DNA of 64,000 nt from a virus. The notes under the pieces were generated by a model that was not told where the DNA came from, did no database searches, and worked only from the letters and a program-made list of their open reading frames with translations. Both the position numbers and the translations under genes were made by a program. The stretch covers positions 1 through 64,000 of the IMG/VR virus record IMGVR_UViG_3300045976_000088; one strand, given 5' to 3'. Shown piece after piece: positions 25,874 to 40,168 of the stretch (position 1 is its first letter; the number at the start of each line of letters is the position of its first letter).

Positions 25874-26250
25874 GATCCAAGCCCCGACAGCGCATCACCA
25901 ATGGCGCCGATCAGATCGCGCGCGGCGTTGTTGAACCCGGCGATGCTGATTCGCTGATAGCTCTCGATGGTCTGCGGCATGAGGTACTCGCGTGCGTTGA
26001 CGATCGTCAGGCCGCCGGGTCGTCGCTCGAACTTGAGGCAAACGAGGCTGCCTTGATCGGCGCGCAGCACGCGCAGATAGGCACGCCAATGCTTCGGCTT
26101 GCTGTCGCCGCCGTAGGTGTCGCGGTAGGTGAAGCACTTCCCGACCAACGCGGCAGCGCGGGCGTTTTCTTCCTTCTCCTCCAGCTTGCGCAGCTTCTTC
26201 TTCAGCGGCTCGATCTGGGCAAGCAGGGATTCCTTGGTCTGTGTGGTCAT
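25870..26250 (-). CDS. hypothetical protein with N-terminal coiled coil
   Basis: 126 residues from ATG 26250. Heptad-like LLAQIEPLKKKLRKLEEKEE, then a beta-rich part (GKCFTYRDTYGGD, WRAYLRVLRADQGSLVCLKF) that resembles an SH3-like barrel. It follows a GC hairpin leader. Function unknown. Confidence 0.65.
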   Translation of the reverse strand: MTTQTKESLLAQIEPLKKKLRKLEEKEENARAAALVGKCFTYRDTYGGDSKPKHWRAYLRVLRADQGSLVCLKFERRPGGLTIVNAREYLMPQTIESYQRISIAGFNNAARDLIGAIGDALSGLGS

Positions 26251-26288
26251 GGTGGTCTGGGGCCCGGGGCTGCCGGGCCGGTAGTTGA

Positions 26289-27881
26289 TCAGTCCCAGCG
26301 ATCCAGCTTGTAGATCGCGCGGCCAGTGGGCCCGGTGACGCGCAGCGTGATGCCCCAGCCAGTGAGGCCGCAGGCCGACGCTTCCTCGGCGCCTTCGAGC
26401 CGGCCGGCGCGCGAGAACGCTTCGATCGTCGAGCGGATGCTGTGGAGCTCGGACTTCAGCGTCTCTGGGAACAGCGCCATGGAAGCTGGGCCATTGACAT
26501 CGCGGGCCCCGTCGATGATCGCGACGATCGACTTCTCGTGGTTCGGCGAGCCGGTCTCGCTGCGCCAGAGATGCGGCTTCAGCGCGATCGCGTTCACCTT
26601 CGCCCAGCCAGGCTGCAGGTTCCACTGGCTGGCCCGCGAGCCGCCGTTGTAGACGTACCAAGCCACCGGGTTGCGCTGGTCCTCGCGATCCCACTGCAGG
26701 ATCGGCGGCGCGTCGGCGTCGACGGCCGTGGTGAGCGCGACGAAGTTTCCATGCGAAGGCACCAGCACCTCGATCGAGCGCGCTTCGGGCAGCACGGTGC
26801 GCGAGAACTTGTCCCAGGTCATCGTGGTGGGCGGCGCCTGCAGGTCGACCGGCTGCGCGGCGTCGCGCGACTTCAGGTGGCCGAACACGCCGGCCGGCTG
26901 CTCGGCCGGTGCCGGAGCGACCGGGCGCCACGCGGCCACCACGTCGTCGAGGCGCGCGAAGCGGCGCTTGAGCGCCGGCGCGATGCCCAGCTTCTCGACC
27001 ACCTTCTCGGCCTGCTCGATGTTGCCGGCGCGCGGCGCCGCCTGCGGCCGCTGGTACTGCAGCGGGTGCATCTTCGCCTTGAACTTCGCCGCCACGTCCT
27101 CGAACGGCAGGCCCGCGGCCAGGTCTTCGAGCAGCGTGCCGATCATGCTGCTGCGCGGATGGCAGAAGCCCGCCGGCGCGGTGGCGACCGACAGCCAGGT
27201 GCCGGCGTCGCGCTGCGGCCGCGACGGCGCGTTGTCGCGCGCCATCTTCAGGTTCAGCAGGAACTCGGCCACGCCCAGCACGTGCTCGCTGCGGTACAGC
27301 GCGTCGGTCTTCAGCAGGTTCACGGCTGCCTGCAGGTGCGGCACGGTGAACTCGGCCAGCGCGCGCCGCAGCGTCTCGTGTTCGTGGCGCTTGTGGGCCA
27401 TGGCCTGGCCTGCCGTCAGCAGGCGGCTCTGGTGCAACATGCTCGCCGGCGGGATCACGTGCAGGTGGTGCCAGTCGCCGGTGGTCGGCGTGCCCCACTG
27501 GCGCTCGGCGCTGTAGAAGACGCCGGTGACGGGCGCGCGCTGAACGCGCAGGTACATCGCGTCTACAGCATCGCGGTACGTCTCGGGCACCGCATCGGTG
27601 TCCACCGACCACATGGCCGGGACGGTGCGGCCGGCCTCGTCGATGGTCACCAGCGCGCCGTAGGTGTCGAAGAAGCGCCGGCAGGTGTTGCAGGTGTGGA
27701 CCTGGCGCTGCTCCGGCGGCAGGTGATCGAGATAGGTCTGGAACAGGCCGTCGACGTCGGTCTTGAACACCGGCTTGCCGGTGCCGACGTTCGCGGCGAA
27801 GGTCTCGCGCAGCGTGGCGCTGAAGTTTTCGTATTCCGCGTCATGCAACGCGGCGTCGTACTCGGGGTTGCGGGTTTGCAC
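26289..27881 (-). CDS. large hypothetical phage protein
   Basis: 530 residues from GTG 27881, with GGAG 6 bases upstream after a CCCGG hairpin. CNTCRRFFDTYGALVTID and TGDWHHLHVIPP lie in the N-terminal half; the middle has AGNIEQAEKVVEKLGIAPALKRR. The C-terminal third ends with VTGPTGRAIYKLDRWD. Conserved-looking Cys and His residues suggest metal binding. I recognise similar proteins in other large phages but no function. It is the biggest gene of the minus block. Confidence 0.7.
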   Translation of the reverse strand: MQTRNPEYDAALHDAEYENFSATLRETFAANVGTGKPVFKTDVDGLFQTYLDHLPPEQRQVHTCNTCRRFFDTYGALVTIDEAGRTVPAMWSVDTDAVPETYRDAVDAMYLRVQRAPVTGVFYSAERQWGTPTTGDWHHLHVIPPASMLHQSRLLTAGQAMAHKRHEHETLRRALAEFTVPHLQAAVNLLKTDALYRSEHVLGVAEFLLNLKMARDNAPSRPQRDAGTWLSVATAPAGFCHPRSSMIGTLLEDLAAGLPFEDVAAKFKAKMHPLQYQRPQAAPRAGNIEQAEKVVEKLGIAPALKRRFARLDDVVAAWRPVAPAPAEQPAGVFGHLKSRDAAQPVDLQAPPTTMTWDKFSRTVLPEARSIEVLVPSHGNFVALTTAVDADAPPILQWDREDQRNPVAWYVYNGGSRASQWNLQPGWAKVNAIALKPHLWRSETGSPNHEKSIVAIIDGARDVNGPASMALFPETLKSELHSIRSTIEAFSRAGRLEGAEEASACGLTGWGITLRVTGPTGRAIYKLDRWD

Positions 27882-27932
27882 AGGTTCTCCAGGTAGTTGA
27901 CGGGATGCCCGGCAGCCGGCCGGGCAGCGGGG

Positions 27933-28274
27933 TCAGAACGGCACGACCAGCGGCCGCTCGACGACGATGCCATCGGGGCGGCGCTCCCAGCTGCCGGTGC
28001 CGGGATCGAACATCAGGCCAGGGCCGCCCTGCGCGCGACGGTGGCGGCGCATGGCCTGGCGGGTGGACTGCTCGGGGTAGCGGCGGCCGGGCCGGTTGCC
28101 GTAGCGCTCCTTGCCGCGGTTGTGGCGCTTGTTCTTGCCTTTGCCGTGGTCTCCGCGTTCGGAGCCGGTGGTGTTCGGCTTGAGCATGTTCGCGGCGGCC
28201 TGCACCGCAGCTCCTCCCATCGCAATCGCTGCGCTCAGTGCGCCCATCAGGACGCTTTTGTTCGTGGTCTTCAT
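27933..28274 (-). CDS. small exported or membrane-targeted hypothetical protein
   Basis: 113 residues from ATG 28274. MKTTNKSVLMGALSAAIAMG followed by AAVQAAA looks like a signal peptide with an A-x-A site. The mature part is very basic (GKGKNKRHNRGKERYGNRPG). Such Arg/Lys-rich exported phage proteins are uncharacterised. The ribosome site is weak. Confidence 0.55.
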   Translation of the reverse strand: MKTTNKSVLMGALSAAIAMGGAAVQAAANMLKPNTTGSERGDHGKGKNKRHNRGKERYGNRPGRRYPEQSTRQAMRRHRRAQGGPGLMFDPGTGSWERRPDGIVVERPLVVPF

Positions 28275-28342
28275 GGTGTGTTGGGGTTGAAGTGGCACGA
28301 CGCCACCCGCATGCGTCGACTCGCGGCGCATGCTGGCTGGGG

Positions 28343-28612
28343 TCAGCGGCCTTCGCGCAGGTCGCGGTGCGCGATCTTGGCGCGGTACAGTGCGTGCATC
28401 CTGTCGCCGACAGCGGGGTGTGCGCTTGGCAGCGTCATGTCGTCCTCGAACGCATGGACCATCGCCGAGCTGACGCCGCTGAAGCCGCGCACGCCTTCTT
28501 CGAGGCCGCGCTGCACGCGATCCTCCAGGTTGTTCATGTCGTCCTTGGTGATCGGCGCGGCCATGGCCTCGTCGGTGATGGTCACGAGCAGGGTGAAGGT
28601 TCGGGATTGCAT
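28343..28612 (-). CDS. hypothetical protein
   Basis: 89 residues from ATG 28612, with GGAG 6 bases upstream behind a CCCGG-CTCG-CCGGG hairpin. It begins QSRTFTLLVTITDEAMAAP, a beta strand followed by helix. No family recognised. Confidence 0.6.
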   Translation of the reverse strand: MQSRTFTLLVTITDEAMAAPITKDDMNNLEDRVQRGLEEGVRGFSGVSSAMVHAFEDDMTLPSAHPAVGDRMHALYRAKIAHRDLREGR

Positions 28613-28650
28613 CAGGTCTCCAGTGGGCCCGGGCGAGCCGGGCGGGTTGG

Positions 28651-29683: not shown

Positions 29684-29854
29684 CTCACACCTCCTTTCGA
29701 CAGTTCCAATCATACGCTTGATTGTTCGCCTGTGCGCATAGTGATGATCTTTTTTGAGCATATAGACGCTGATCTTTTATGATCATTGTGTCTTTGCATT
29801 GTGCGCACAGACGAACCATTCACGTATACTTGGAACTGTTGAAAGGAGATCGAA
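29684..29854. promoter_or_regulatory. mirror-image divergent promoter pair
   Basis: The two halves are inverted near-copies. Leftward: TGCGCA, 18 bases, TATGAT (-10 at 29714-29709). Rightward: TGCGCA, 17 bases, TATACT (29825-29830). Each -10 is followed by TTGGAAC(T)GT and GAAAGGAG. Both lack a consensus -35 and carry a TGTGCGCA element in its place, suggesting an activator or phage-specific sigma recognition. Two TGATC-type operators lie between them. Confidence 0.75.
29745..29785. promoter_or_regulatory. two operator-like sites TGATC-N6-GAnCA
   Basis: TGATC-TTTTTT-GAGCA at 29745-29760 and TGATC-TTTTAT-GATCA at 29770-29785, both 16 bp, lie at the centre of the divergent promoter region, positioned to control both directions. 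Confidence 0.6.
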
Positions 29855-29947: not shown

Positions 29948-30085
29948 ATGGAAGCGAAGCGCGACACCGTGGTGGCTGAGTGGGTCGGCCAGGACGGCAA
30001 CAAGTGGCGCGAGCTGCGGGTGTGGGTCGGCAACGGCTTCAGGTACTTCGCGCAGCGCGAGCTGAGCCCTGGCGTTTGGGTTTGA
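29948..30085 (+). CDS. 45-residue hypothetical protein
   Basis: ATG 29948, three bases after the membrane-peptide stop. Trp-rich beta-like sequence (AEWVGQDGNKWRELRVWVG, FRYFAQREL). No family recognised. Followed by a GACCAGCC/GGCTGGTC hairpin leader. Confidence 0.55.
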   Translation: MEAKRDTVVAEWVGQDGNKWRELRVWVGNGFRYFAQRELSPGVWV

Positions 30086-30136
30086 TCGCAGCGACCAGCC
30101 CGGCGGCTGGTCAGTGTGATTGAAAGGAGAACCAAA

Positions 30137-30364
30137 ATGTCGAGCGCCTACTTTGCCCCACTGGTCACGGCTCCCATCGTCATCACCGACCCAGGTCAGT
30201 ATGTGACTCGCGGCGGCGAAGTGGTGATGGTTAACAAGGTTTCGCAGAAGAACGATTTTGGTTGCCGCGGCCAATACCAGAATGGTGTGCGGGAGCGCTG
30301 GCATCGAAGCGGGCGCATCTTTGCCGGCCAAGAGTCTATGAACGACATTGTTCGTCGCGCCTGA
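30137..30364 (+). CDS. 75-residue hypothetical protein
   Basis: ATG 30137, with GAAAGGAG 8 bases upstream. SSAYFAPLVTAPIVITDPGQ then GEVVMVNKVSQKNDFGCRGQ suggests a small beta domain. Unrecognised. Confidence 0.65.
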   Translation: MSSAYFAPLVTAPIVITDPGQYVTRGGEVVMVNKVSQKNDFGCRGQYQNGVRERWHRSGRIFAGQESMNDIVRRA

Positions 30365-30419
30365 TCCCAGCCGCTCAGCGTCGCGTGCGGCGCTGGCGAG
30401 TGTGATCAAGGAGAGTGTG

Positions 30420-30824
30420 ATGAGCGAGATGGCGCAAGCGATGCGCATGCTGCAGGGCAACTACTCGACCGCGCTGCGGCAGATCAACCACCCGACCCAC
30501 AAGGGCCGGCCGAACCCGGCGCACGGGAAGTTCCACTTTGTCGGGACCATCCCCGCGACCTGCTGGGACGAGACGCGCAACGGCGGCTTTGGTGGCGCGC
30601 GCTTCTTCGACACCGAGGACGAGGCGATCGCCGCGGCCATCGCGGGCGGCGCGACGCGGATTCAGCGCTGCGACTGCTCGTTCGTCGACGTCGATGCCTG
30701 GATCGAGGCGAAGTGCGACGAGGCTCGCGCTGAGGAGATCGAGCACGAGGCCGCGCTGGAGCTGTGGGCCGAGCGCGGAGGGTATGCGGCGGGGCTGGCA
30801 AAGCCTGGTGCGAGGAGCGCGTGA
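30420..30824 (+). CDS. hypothetical protein
   Basis: 134 residues from ATG 30420. It begins SEMAQAMRMLQGNYSTALRQ and contains GKFHFVGTIPATCWDE, TEDEAIAAAIAGGATRIQRC and a His-free acidic C-terminal helix. No family recognised. Preceded by a hairpin leader and coupled to the next gene by TGATG. Confidence 0.65.
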   Translation: MSEMAQAMRMLQGNYSTALRQINHPTHKGRPNPAHGKFHFVGTIPATCWDETRNGGFGGARFFDTEDEAIAAAIAGGATRIQRCDCSFVDVDAWIEAKCDEARAEEIEHEAALELWAERGGYAAGLAKPGARSA

Positions 30825-31081
30825 TGGCAAGCAAGCCCCAAGACCTGACCCCTGAAGCCGCGGCCGGCTACGCCACCGGCGGCGAGCGCGTGGAGAACCC
30901 GCACCTCGCCACCTCGCCGTGCTGGTATGCGTTCGAGCTTGGGCGGCAGCTGGCGGCCAATGCGTTCCCGGCGCCGATGGGCGTGCGCATGGGGCGCGGG
31001 GACTCGATCTGGTCGAACGGCGTGCGCTGGGCGATCGGGATGGCGCACCGCAATGGCGTGACGTTCGAGCGCATCGCCTGA
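30824..31081 (+). CDS. hypothetical protein
   Basis: 85 residues from ATG 30824 with GAGGAG upstream. AAGYATGGERVENPHLATSP and SPCWYAFELGRQLA resemble small phage proteins found in many genomes. Unknown function. Confidence 0.65.
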   Translation: MASKPQDLTPEAAAGYATGGERVENPHLATSPCWYAFELGRQLAANAFPAPMGVRMGRGDSIWSNGVRWAIGMAHRNGVTFERIA

Positions 31082-31130
31082 CGGCTGCAGCGGCTTGCCT
31101 TGGGGCAGGCCCGTGCAACCCGAGGAGTGA
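31082..31130 (+). repeat. start-associated leader element, copy 1
   Basis: Begins ACGGCTGCAGC directly after the stop codon, then a CTTGCC-TTGG-GGCAGG hairpin, then CGTGCAACCCGAGGAG before the next ATG. Shares both ends with the leaders at 31389 and 31930. Confidence 0.7.
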
Positions 31131-31133
31131 ATG

Positions 31134-31388
31134 ATGAACCTGAAGCACCACCCCGGCAACGTCACCGGCGACACCTACGCGCAGGCGATGTCGCTGGTGA
31201 AGATCGATGATCGGTACCTGGTGGCTGGCGTCGACCTGGTGCCGGTGCTCGGCTGCCTGGATGCGCCGGCCGAGATCAGCACCGGTCGCATGGTGCATGT
31301 CGGCGCGCAGCACACGGCTGGGTGCGGGCTGATCCCCGCGGGGGAGTTCCAGGTGCTGACGCAGCGCGATGGGTGGCGTGCCAGCTAA
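31134..31388 (+). CDS. hypothetical protein
   Basis: 84 residues; ATG 31134 is preferred over ATG 31131 because it is spaced 6 bases from GGAG. NLKHHPGNVTGDTYAQAMSL then RYLVAGVDLVPVLGCLD suggests a small beta fold. Unrecognised. Confidence 0.6.
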   Translation: MNLKHHPGNVTGDTYAQAMSLVKIDDRYLVAGVDLVPVLGCLDAPAEISTGRMVHVGAQHTAGCGLIPAGEFQVLTQRDGWRAS

Positions 31389-31447
31389 CGGCTGCAGCCG
31401 CGCAGGGCCTCGCGGGGCCCTGGCGAGTGCAACCCGATGGAGCAACG
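31389..31447 (+). repeat. start-associated leader element, copy 2
   Basis: ACGGCTGCAGC right after the stop, an AGGGCC-TCGCG-GGGCCCT hairpin, then GAGTGCAACCCGATGGAG before ATG 31448. Confidence 0.7.
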
Positions 31448-31708
31448 ATGCCCACCAACCACAACGAAACACCCCTGCAGGCGGCCGTGCGCGGCCTGGA
31501 GGAGCGCGCCGCGGCCCGCGAGCGCGCGGCCGTCGAGCTGCAGCGCCTGGCCGACGGCCGGCACGGCGCCGCCGGCATCCGCGGCCTGGTGCAGCACCAG
31601 CTGCAGCTCGGCGCCGAGCGCATGCTGGCCGAGCAGCTGGAGTTCCTGAAGCAGGCCGACGCGCTGAAGAAGCAGGCCGCTGGCGTGGCGCAGGGTCGAC
31701 TGCTCTGA
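31448..31708 (+). CDS. small helical hypothetical protein
   Basis: 86 residues from ATG 31448. Ala/Arg/Glu/Leu-rich throughout (RGLEERAAARERAAVELQRL), likely a coiled coil. Coupled to the next gene by TGATG. Confidence 0.6.
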   Translation: MPTNHNETPLQAAVRGLEERAAARERAAVELQRLADGRHGAAGIRGLVQHQLQLGAERMLAEQLEFLKQADALKKQAAGVAQGRLL

Positions 31709-31929
31709 TGGGCTACGTCAACCCTCTGCTGAAACTGCCCGCAGCGCAGAAGCTGCTGGAACTGCCGGCCGACCAGCGCGCGGTGATCGAGCAGCTGCTG
31801 CGCGAGCTCCGCGCCGATGCTGATCGTCTGGCCGAGCAGTCCTGGAAGAAGCGCAAAGGTCCGATGGCCGCGTACTGGCGAGCTGTCGCCACCTACGCTC
31901 GGCACCTGGCGCACGCGCTGAGTCGATGA
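31708..31929 (+). CDS. small hypothetical protein
   Basis: 73 residues from ATG 31708. GYVNPLLKLPAAQKLLELPA then helix EQLLRELRADADRLAEQSWK. Helical and basic at the C-terminus. Unrecognised. Confidence 0.6.
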   Translation: MGYVNPLLKLPAAQKLLELPADQRAVIEQLLRELRADADRLAEQSWKKRKGPMAAYWRAVATYARHLAHALSR

Positions 31930-31987
31930 CGGCTGCAGCCGGGCCCGTGGCGCGCTGCGGGTCCGAGTGCAACCTGATGGAGATGCT
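31930..31987 (+). repeat. start-associated leader element, copy 3
   Basis: ACGGCTGCAGC after the stop, a GGGCCCG/CGGGTCC-type hairpin, then GAGTGCAACCTGATGGAG before ATG 31988. Confidence 0.7.
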
Positions 31988-32038
31988 ATGGCAGACAAAA
32001 GAGACTGGACGCCGCGCGAGCGCGAGGCCCTGCAATGA
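31988..32038 (+). CDS. 16-residue peptide, possible leader ORF
   Basis: ATG 31988 with GGAG 6 bases upstream encodes ADKRDWTPREREALQ after Met; its TGA overlaps the next ATG (ATGA). The leader element and coupling suggest it is translated. It may only serve to bring ribosomes to the 103-residue gene downstream. Confidence 0.45.
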   Translation: MADKRDWTPREREALQ

Positions 32039-33307: not shown

Positions 33308-33354
33308 CGCCGCTTCTGGCTCGGTTCCCTCCTTCCGGCGACCAGCCGGTTTCC

Positions 33355-33378
33355 AGGCCCTTCGGGGCCTTTTTTCTT
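33355..33378 (+). terminator. rho-independent terminator
   Basis: AGGCCC-TTCG-GGGCCT followed by a T-rich tract (TTTTTCTT) ends the operon that starts at 29855. Confidence 0.85.
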
Positions 33379-33440
33379 GATCGGATCCTTCCGGTGGACC
33401 TGATCATCTCTGGTTACCGATCTGAATTCTCATTGCGTGA

Positions 33441-33536
33441 CAACAACTTAGCGGTAACCAAGCGCGGTTACCGGACTATGGTTACCGAAACCGTGGCCGG
33501 TTACCGTAACTCGGGCCGGTTTCCGCTAAGTTGTTG
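33441..33536. repeat. long inverted repeat inside the iteron region
   Basis: Arms of 19 bp, CAACAACTTAGCGGTAACC (33441-33459) and its inverse at 33518-33536, differ at one position and flank three direct GGTTACC copies. A cruciform or dimeric binding site is possible. Confidence 0.8.
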
Positions 33537-33594
33537 ATTCATAACGATTCGGCGGATTGGGAACCGGTAACCAGTTTTCCCCCACCGCTCCATC

Positions 33595-33659
33595 ATGTGT
33601 GTGTGCGTGCATGTGTGTGCGTGCGTGTGTGCGAGCGCACGCGCGTGCATGCGCACACG
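33595..33659. repeat. alternating GT/GC purine-pyrimidine tract
   Basis: About 65 bp of near-perfect alternation (ATGTGTGTGTGCGTGCATGT onward, ending GCATGCGCACACG), the kind of sequence that adopts Z-DNA under negative supercoiling. It lies between two halves of the iteron array and is followed by GAT and ACT triplet runs. Confidence 0.8.
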
Positions 33660-33908
33660 ATGATGATGAATGATTGTTGGTTACTTGGTTACTACTACTA
33701 CTAGAGCGAGCTAAGTCCGCGTCAGCAAACAAAAAAATCGGTAACCTTGATTTGGTTACCCGTGGTTCCCGTGGGTTACCGGGTAGGAGTTCACGGAAAG
33801 TCAGTGGTCACTATCGCAGTTCACGCAAATACTTCCGAAGCCTTTACACGGATCATCAAATATGAGGCAAAATGCCCCCTACCTCGTCGGGTTGGGGGAC
33901 CAGTCGCA

Positions 33909-34424
33909 ATGGTCGAGTACATGCAACTCGTGCCGGGAAAGCTGCATTTCCGGTGCGATCGTCAGCGCGCAACGCTGAGCACGGAGGCCTGCGCCGAAAT
34001 GTGGCGCCAGGCCAATCACGAGAACATCGAAAGCCGCCTGGGCTGTCGGTGCTGCCCGCTGGGTGCTGAGCACGCCGGCGAGCGCCTGGCGAGCATGAGC
34101 GCGCTGAAGGGCACGCCAACCTGCGCGCGCTGCCACCGCGGCGCCGAGCGGCTGATCCACGGCATGCACTGCGTCAGCTGCTACAACCGGCAGCGCGAGG
34201 TGATCCGCGGCAAGAACGCCAAGGGCACGGCGCCGACGCGCATCGCACCGCTGCAGCCCCGGCGCATCTGGTTCCTGGCCGGCCGGGTGCTGACCACCCT
34301 GGCAAGCCCGCTGACGATGGACACCACCGAGCTCGTGGTGGCCGCTCTGCGCGACAGCCAGGACCGGGTGCGCTTCGCGTTCAAGGCGCAGGCGCCGCGG
34401 GCGGCCCAGCTGAGCCTCTGGTGA
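33909..34424 (+). CDS. zinc-binding hypothetical phage protein
   Basis: 171 residues from ATG 33909; MQLVPGK at 33921 is an alternative start. KLHFRCDRQRATLSTEACAE, LGCRCCPLGAEHAGE and CARCHRGAERLIHGMHCVSC carry multiple Cys pairs and an HAGE motif common in phages of Burkholderiales-type hosts. Middle and C-terminal parts are basic. Possible transcription factor. First gene after the iteron region. Confidence 0.65.
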   Translation: MVEYMQLVPGKLHFRCDRQRATLSTEACAEMWRQANHENIESRLGCRCCPLGAEHAGERLASMSALKGTPTCARCHRGAERLIHGMHCVSCYNRQREVIRGKNAKGTAPTRIAPLQPRRIWFLAGRVLTTLASPLTMDTTELVVAALRDSQDRVRFAFKAQAPRAAQLSLW

Positions 34425-39901: not shown

Positions 39902-40168
39902 ATGAAAAGCACCTTTGACCGCATCAAGAAGCTCGTCGCCGAGCAGCTGGGCCTGAGCTACGACAACCTCGACGACAACGTGAAGCCCGAGAGCAGCCTG
40001 GTCGGAGACCTGGGCGCCGACAGCCTCGATACCATCGAGATGGTCATGGCCCTTGAAGACGAGTTCGGCATCGAGATTCCCAACGAGCACGCCGAGAAGA
40101 TCAAGACCGTGCAGGACTGCCTCGACGTCGTGGAGCAGCAACTGAAGCTGCGCGGGGTGACGGCGTGA
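39902..40168 (+). CDS. acyl carrier protein
   Basis: 88 residues from ATG 39902, with CTGGAG upstream behind a GGGCGCGC hairpin. [36 protein letters not shown] and [20 protein letters not shown] match bacterial AcpP along the full length, with Ser41 of GADSLD as the phosphopantetheine site. It could carry acyl chains taken from host lipid synthesis, for example for lipidation or membrane change. No acyltransferase is seen nearby. Confidence 0.92.

Follow-up and report, generated by a model that had tools for sequence, protein, structure and literature searches.

The gaps between several small genes of a rightward phage operon end alike and enclose different hairpins, which raises the question of what kind of element they hold and whether it belongs to the gene that begins behind it or to the gene that ends before it. 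The window, the entire 64,000-nucleotide stretch of DNA analysed here, is part of a 97.6-kb viral record and encodes a terminase large subunit (phrog_675), a primase, a helicase, an integrase and two tRNAs. By terminase, its nearest cultured relatives are the Pseudomonas phages Jeremy and Dolphis (67%), with the Bordetella phage PHB04 more distant. A divergent control region (29684..29854), whose gene layout is kept in the viral contigs G001, G002 and G003, lies upstream of the leader-bearing operon, which adjoins its right side. The sole promoter-like match between 29600 and 33500 is located at 29754-29783, outside the leaders. A PHROG match was obtained for one of the ten operon genes tested, and this PHROG is without known function. 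Two further features of the region are its DNA at 31706-31919, which is approximately 72% identical to hypothetical genes of many conjugative plasmids (Acidovorax pJS42, Xanthomonas, Delftia and Cupriavidus), and some 0.7 kb without a confident gene at 33308-33998. The latter is rich in GGTTACC/GGTAACC repeats and also has a GT-rich repeat and, at 33355, a hairpin resembling a terminator; it is kept in G003 and is possibly a replication origin or control region.

Five gaps between small genes at 30083-31987 fold alike, with the upstream stop codon followed in order by an outer helix, a 2x2 internal loop, an inner hairpin, GGAG and ATG. The outer helix comprises about eight pairs, usually with one mismatch, and the internal loop places GC opposite AG (CG in copy C) within CAGC...AGTG. 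The inner hairpin has 8-13 pairs across all members and 8 or 11 pairs capped by a loop of four bases in the window leaders, where the start codon lies 5-11 nt beyond the Shine-Dalgarno sequence GGAG. A sequence-only reading of this DNA had reported three gaps with common ends and a different hairpin in each. These are the gaps at 31082-31130, 31389-31447 and 31930-31987, which carry (T)ACGGCTGCAGC at the stop and, in front of the start, GTGCAACCyGA(w)GGAG. Both observations are borne out, but the set is larger, as the gaps at 30086-30136 and 30365-30419 belong to it with another outer helix (TGATCNCA...TGTGATY). The shared sequence originally noticed therefore corresponds to the loop and the helix below it, and the differing hairpin to the inner helix. 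A repeated structured leader beside the gene starts is supported.

Leaders A and B, both on the plus strand as are the other three, use the outer helix TGATCNCA/TGTGATY. Leader A (30083..30129) consists of a TGA stop, the outer helix GATCGCA/TGTGATT, the GC/AG loop, an 8-bp inner hairpin and AAGGAG, precedes a 75-aa gene at 30137 and has a folding energy of -24.8 kcal/mol. It scores 54.9 bits (E about 1e-14) with R1, a model built from 12 members, including leader A. Leader B (30362..30413), outside the training set, has the outer helix TGATCCCA/TGTGATCA, an inner stem of 3+8 bp with one bulge and AAGGAG, and stands before a 134-aa gene at 30420 (R1 35.8 bits, E 1.6e-8). The three gaps originally noticed contain leaders C, D and E, with the common outer helix CGGCTGCA/TGCAACC. 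Leader C (31079..31127; R1 50.8 bits, in the training set) shows TGA, the outer helix CGGCTGCA/TGCAACCC, an 8-bp inner hairpin and GAGGAG before an 85-aa gene at 31131 (or 31134), and is kept in G002 and G003 ahead of a homologous gene. The same outer helix recurs in leader D (31386..31442), where it accompanies TAA, an inner stem of 3+8 bp with a bulge and TGGAG before an 86-aa gene at 31448 (R1 27.5 bits, E 7.6e-6, outside the training set), and in leader E (31927..31982), with TGA, an 11-bp inner hairpin and TGGAG (R1 18.2 bits, likewise outside the training set). Leader E precedes a 16-aa ORF and is also found in G003, there ahead of an intact gene. The ORF itself (31988-32038; MADKRDWTPREREALQ) is a deletion remnant of a gene of approximately 125 aa that is intact in G003. 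A weak sixth copy is located on the minus strand in the leftward operon (28298..28345), beginning at the TGA of gene 28612-28343. It has the outer helix GACCCCA/TGGCGTC, starts at an in-frame stop and scores 14.4 bits with R1; its counterpart in G003 scores 16.4 bits with the model R2.

In the whole 97.6-kb record, the two-ended pattern CGGCTGCAGC-N12-42-GTGCAACC occurs three times on the plus strand, never on the minus strand and never as a reversed control. Each end alone, with two or three mismatches allowed, was not enriched over shuffles in scans of the window. The signal is both ends paired at the right place and not either end alone. Among 2.9 million viral contigs, this pattern was present in G001, G002 and G003 only, besides its own contig, twice in each and between genes. 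Scans with patterns of the second outer helix located the same fold at the loci L018, L020, L022, L030, L077 and L091 and in a group around L062-L076. Copies that no pattern had asked for were found by R1, namely a second copy in L022 and new outer helices in the L062 group (TAAGCACA/TGCGCTTG and TGACCACA/TGCGGTCG), and leaders B, D and E were recovered by it despite their absence from training. The element is encoded in 24 viral contigs including its own, several of them near-identical; the 23 further contigs are uncultivated and carry several outer-helix sequences. With a descriptor that ignores the sequence of the outer helix, 57 matches were obtained in 854 kb compared with 3-6 in shuffles, which is a consistency check only, as these loci had been picked for containing the element. 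The invariance of CAGC and AGTG is likewise partly one of ascertainment, since both were built into several search patterns; in the window alone, with no pattern used, CAGC and AGTG or CGTG accompany both outer helices. Neither R1 nor R2 detected a significant copy in 13 complete cultured phages, the closest terminase relatives included, and BLAST comparisons of single leaders with cultured phages and plasmids produced nothing convincing.

Several matches were set aside. Three planctomycete matches from a pattern scan of bacterial genomes are attributable to chance, two being in apparent coding sequence and none leader-like. The relaxed-pattern matches L019, L021, L023-L029, L031, L053-L061, L078-L090 and L092-L094, whose folds are unlike the element, are also chance matches, and L066 (in G021) was excluded despite its model score as its minimum-energy fold is without the inner hairpin. 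In the isolate prophages at L032 (6973), L033, L034 and L035 (8244), a stop codon is immediately followed by a CGGCTGCAGC...GTGCAACCGACGAGGAG leader that has a similar outer helix, a different loop and a score below the model threshold; these leaders are possible relatives of the element. A second repeated leader, GGTGTATCCAGGCGACCGyAACTGCTTGG, occurs in L062, L071 and L074 behind a AATGCCCGGCGTGC hairpin and ahead of other genes.

Pairing was evaluated in an alignment of 25 distinct members, with long stems trimmed in the middle. Paired cells amount to 91.8%, as compared with 29-41% in slid controls, every one of which fails, and sliding the partners by one base reduces pairing to 30-35%. Double-sided changes are found in 13 of the 16 pairs, with 84 cells changed on both sides (26.3 in shuffles) and a covariation score of 0.609 (0.186 in shuffles), and the covariation in the untrimmed 12-member set agrees. 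Both the pairing and the GC/AG loop are kept across several outer helices, among them TGATC/GATCA, TAAGC/GCTTG, TGACC/GGTCG, TAATTACA/TGTGATTA and CGGCTGCA/TGCAACC. The fourth of these is that of L091, where TAA replaces TGA and the 3' arm compensates for the change, while in the inner helix the sequence varies and the pairing stays. On the coding strand, 40 G.U cells were counted versus 16 C.A cells, as expected of RNA from that strand. The antisense folds are also fairly stable (mean -21.7 kcal/mol versus -23.4 kcal/mol for the sense strand).

The sequence-only reading described the leaders as start-associated, which places the anchor at the wrong end. In 32 of 33 cases the element starts at an in-frame stop codon, at a distance of 0 nt; for one of these, only 21 codons of the ORF fall within the available stretch. 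In the sole exception (G1d), the element begins a few bases downstream of the true stop. The spacing to the Shine-Dalgarno sequence is variable (-1 to 35 nt): in most copies this sequence lies 0-9 nt behind the outer helix, and in the L062 group 29-35 nt, with a second hairpin intervening. A Shine-Dalgarno sequence and an ORF follow the element in all 31 cases tested; given the constant distance to the stop and the variable distance to the Shine-Dalgarno sequence, it is the stop and not the start that forms the fixed point. Better exposure of the Shine-Dalgarno sequence as a function is unsupported, its predicted accessibility at the leaders being no better than at the other starts of the phage (0.44 versus 0.42).

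Five other starts (7019, 27881, 28612, 37442 and 39902) had been grouped with the leaders on account of a GC hairpin and TGGAGA, and none of them has the shared ends. TGGAGA is indeed enriched, occurring at nine of 93 predicted starts where 0.33 would be expected, but it is one of the usual forms of the Shine-Dalgarno sequence. Clean local hairpins precede 27881, 28612 and 37442 and none precedes 7019, while the hairpin visible before 39902 is not part of the minimum-energy fold of that gap. The gene starting there (39902-40168) looks from its product (motif GADSLDTIE) to encode an acyl carrier protein and is found in G000-G003. On the minus strand, gaps of the leftward operon at 26250-28650 contain a simple hairpin of the GCCCGG type and, behind it, CTGGAGA; G001-G003 have similar hairpins in the corresponding positions, and phage PHB04 has comparable ones. 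These simple GC hairpins, which stand before several of the five starts and are without the shared ends, form a separate and simpler class.

Comparison of the window with G003 reveals a clean 286-nt indel comprising the gene 30137-30364 and one leader, with its junction inside the arm AGTGTGAT shared by two leaders; G003 represents the side lacking both, and the hybrid leader at the junction still folds. One gene has thus been lost or gained exactly at a leader arm. In G001, a D-type hairpin precedes an unrelated gene, and the homologue of the leader D gene has a C-type hairpin there. Identical inner hairpins are shared by L018 and L077 and by L030 and L091. Possible signs of modular gene shuffling are this one clean indel and the reassorted pairs of leaders and genes.

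The same fold, written in different letters, recurs in unrelated uncultivated phages, and the leaders therefore appear to be an undescribed punctuation of multi-gene messages. The fold, its covariation, the stop anchoring, the spread over phages of differing gene content and one gene loss or gain at a leader arm are all shown here. Beyond this we infer that the leaders act as RNA in vivo, that they process or insulate the message and that a host factor takes part. We would put at about even the chances that they are cis-acting structured RNAs of a polycistronic early mRNA which most likely serve as its punctuation, are recognised by a host factor and recombine between their shared arms. Each copy would start where one small gene ends, at its stop codon, fold, and leave the Shine-Dalgarno sequence of the next gene outside the fold. 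A host factor, for which RNase III is the first candidate, would cleave or bind the helix of roughly two turns after departure of the terminating ribosome, so that every small gene may be expressed and protected independently of its neighbours. As all copies share arms, homologous recombination between them could add, remove or swap units of a gene plus its leader. No promoter and no plus-strand terminator call falls within the leaders. Of the phage protein families, none occurs in every one of the 11 records compared (the maximum is six, with partial genome coverage), which favours a host factor over a phage-encoded partner. Against this reading count that RNase III usually needs no fixed internal loop, that the outer helix would be melted by a ribosome positioned on the stop codon, that the antisense folds are nearly as stable, that the Shine-Dalgarno sequence is predicted to be no more accessible than at other starts, and that the invariance of CAGC and AGTG is in part one of ascertainment. 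Possible, though more speculative, is that an undescribed RNA family in otherwise unrelated phages reads out translation termination, with the stop in the helix and the loop recognised by a host RNA-binding protein or nuclease, yielding single-gene units and exchangeable cassettes.

The main rival is a translational role, in which the CAGC/AGTG loop is bound by a phage or host protein, or the terminating ribosome is brought to the next Shine-Dalgarno sequence, so that neighbouring genes are coupled or jointly repressed. The exact anchoring at the stop, a loop conserved inside an otherwise variable stem and the closeness of the Shine-Dalgarno sequence in most copies would all suit such an operator, which we nonetheless consider somewhat unlikely, as in the L062 group the Shine-Dalgarno sequence is remote and behind a second hairpin, the fold does not sequester it, and the carriers compared have no protein family in common. 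The leaders could instead be mainly recombination joints, kept because their common ends allow small genes to be exchanged between phages by homologous recombination, and contribute little to expression. The 286-nt indel, the reassorted C- and D-type hairpins and the inner hairpins identical between loci speak for this, but recombination alone needs identical sequence, whereas here the letters change and the pairing is kept, making it improbable as the main function. A still more specialised joint, the attC-like single-strand recombination site of a cassette array, likewise has conserved ends flanking a variable hairpin between small genes. It is barely credible here, however, with the AAC/GTT R boxes absent from the TGATC-, TAAGC- and TGACC-type copies, the observed indel explained by homologous sequence in AGTGTGAT, and an integrase (7019-5829) whose matches are ordinary families of phage integrases.

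Inverted repeats, several per genome and near gene boundaries, are also what operator sites in the DNA, stoperator- or ESAS-like and bound by a dimeric protein, would look like, and ESAS have been so explained by their discoverers (PMC3203893). Such sites are a quite improbable explanation for the leaders, given that the inner repeat keeps only its pairing and no conserved sequence, that G.U exceed C.A cells on the coding strand, and that every copy is intergenic and in the orientation of transcription. GC-rich hairpins directly behind stops, often UGA, might alternatively be intrinsic terminators, attenuators or read-through signals. This is very unlikely, since none of the leaders has a T tract or a terminator call, three members have TAA, and the distance to the next start keeps no constant frame; on the terminator scan and stop-codon analysis, termination, read-through and Sec insertion were rejected as functions.

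If the leaders do punctuate the message as RNA, a polycistronic early mRNA would become a series of independently controlled single-gene units and exchangeable gene cassettes. Phage early regions are rich in small unknown genes, whose one-by-one expression and exchange are poorly understood, and a covarying fold tied to the stop provides a searchable mark for small-gene cassettes across phages of differing gene content. The leader also offers a defined RNA against which host partners can be tested, as well as a portable part for use between cistrons, and it makes a translational, processing or recombination role of phage intergenic repeats testable using a single reporter.

Among known systems, the sequence-only reading likened the leaders to the start-associated sequences (SAS) and ESAS of cluster K mycobacteriophages. 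The SAS is a constant 13-bp sequence, GGGATAGGAGCCC, located at most a few bases from the start codon, and ESAS are 17-bp imperfect inverted repeats of conserved sequence with a 4-13 bp spacer, for which Pope et al. (2011; PMC3203893) found little support for RNA pairing and favoured DNA-binding proteins. The likeness lies in repeats between the stop and start of small non-structural phage genes, with inverted-repeat ends and a variable spacer (PMC3203893; PMC12699233). Nevertheless, the leaders are not SAS/ESAS: the 13-bp SAS is absent from all leader sequences listed, the leaders are anchored at the stop codon and have no common sequence, their arms comprise 8 outer and 8-13 inner pairs, the latter without conserved sequence yet paired, and covariation strongly supports the RNA pairing that was judged unsupported for ESAS (PMC3203893). 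According to PMC4503421, the PeSLs of T4-type phages (Arbiol et al. 2010; Comeau et al. 2014) are also intergenic stem-loops between small early genes and appear to mediate gene shuffling, but they combine an early promoter with a terminator stem-loop, whereas the leaders have neither and instead a ribosome-binding site; the leaders are not PeSLs in the sense of that description. With the candidate structured RNAs in Rfam 15 they share the character of short cis-acting RNAs with covariation, and they match no family there even at permissive thresholds. In the early region of phage T7, RNase III sites between cistrons form irregular hairpins of about two turns with an internal loop. By description, these resemble the leaders, which are irregular hairpins of similar length (8 pairs, the 2x2 loop and 8-13 pairs) upstream of the next ribosome-binding site; the leaders differ in that the outer helix contains or abuts the stop codon and that the loop is a fixed GC/AG 2x2.
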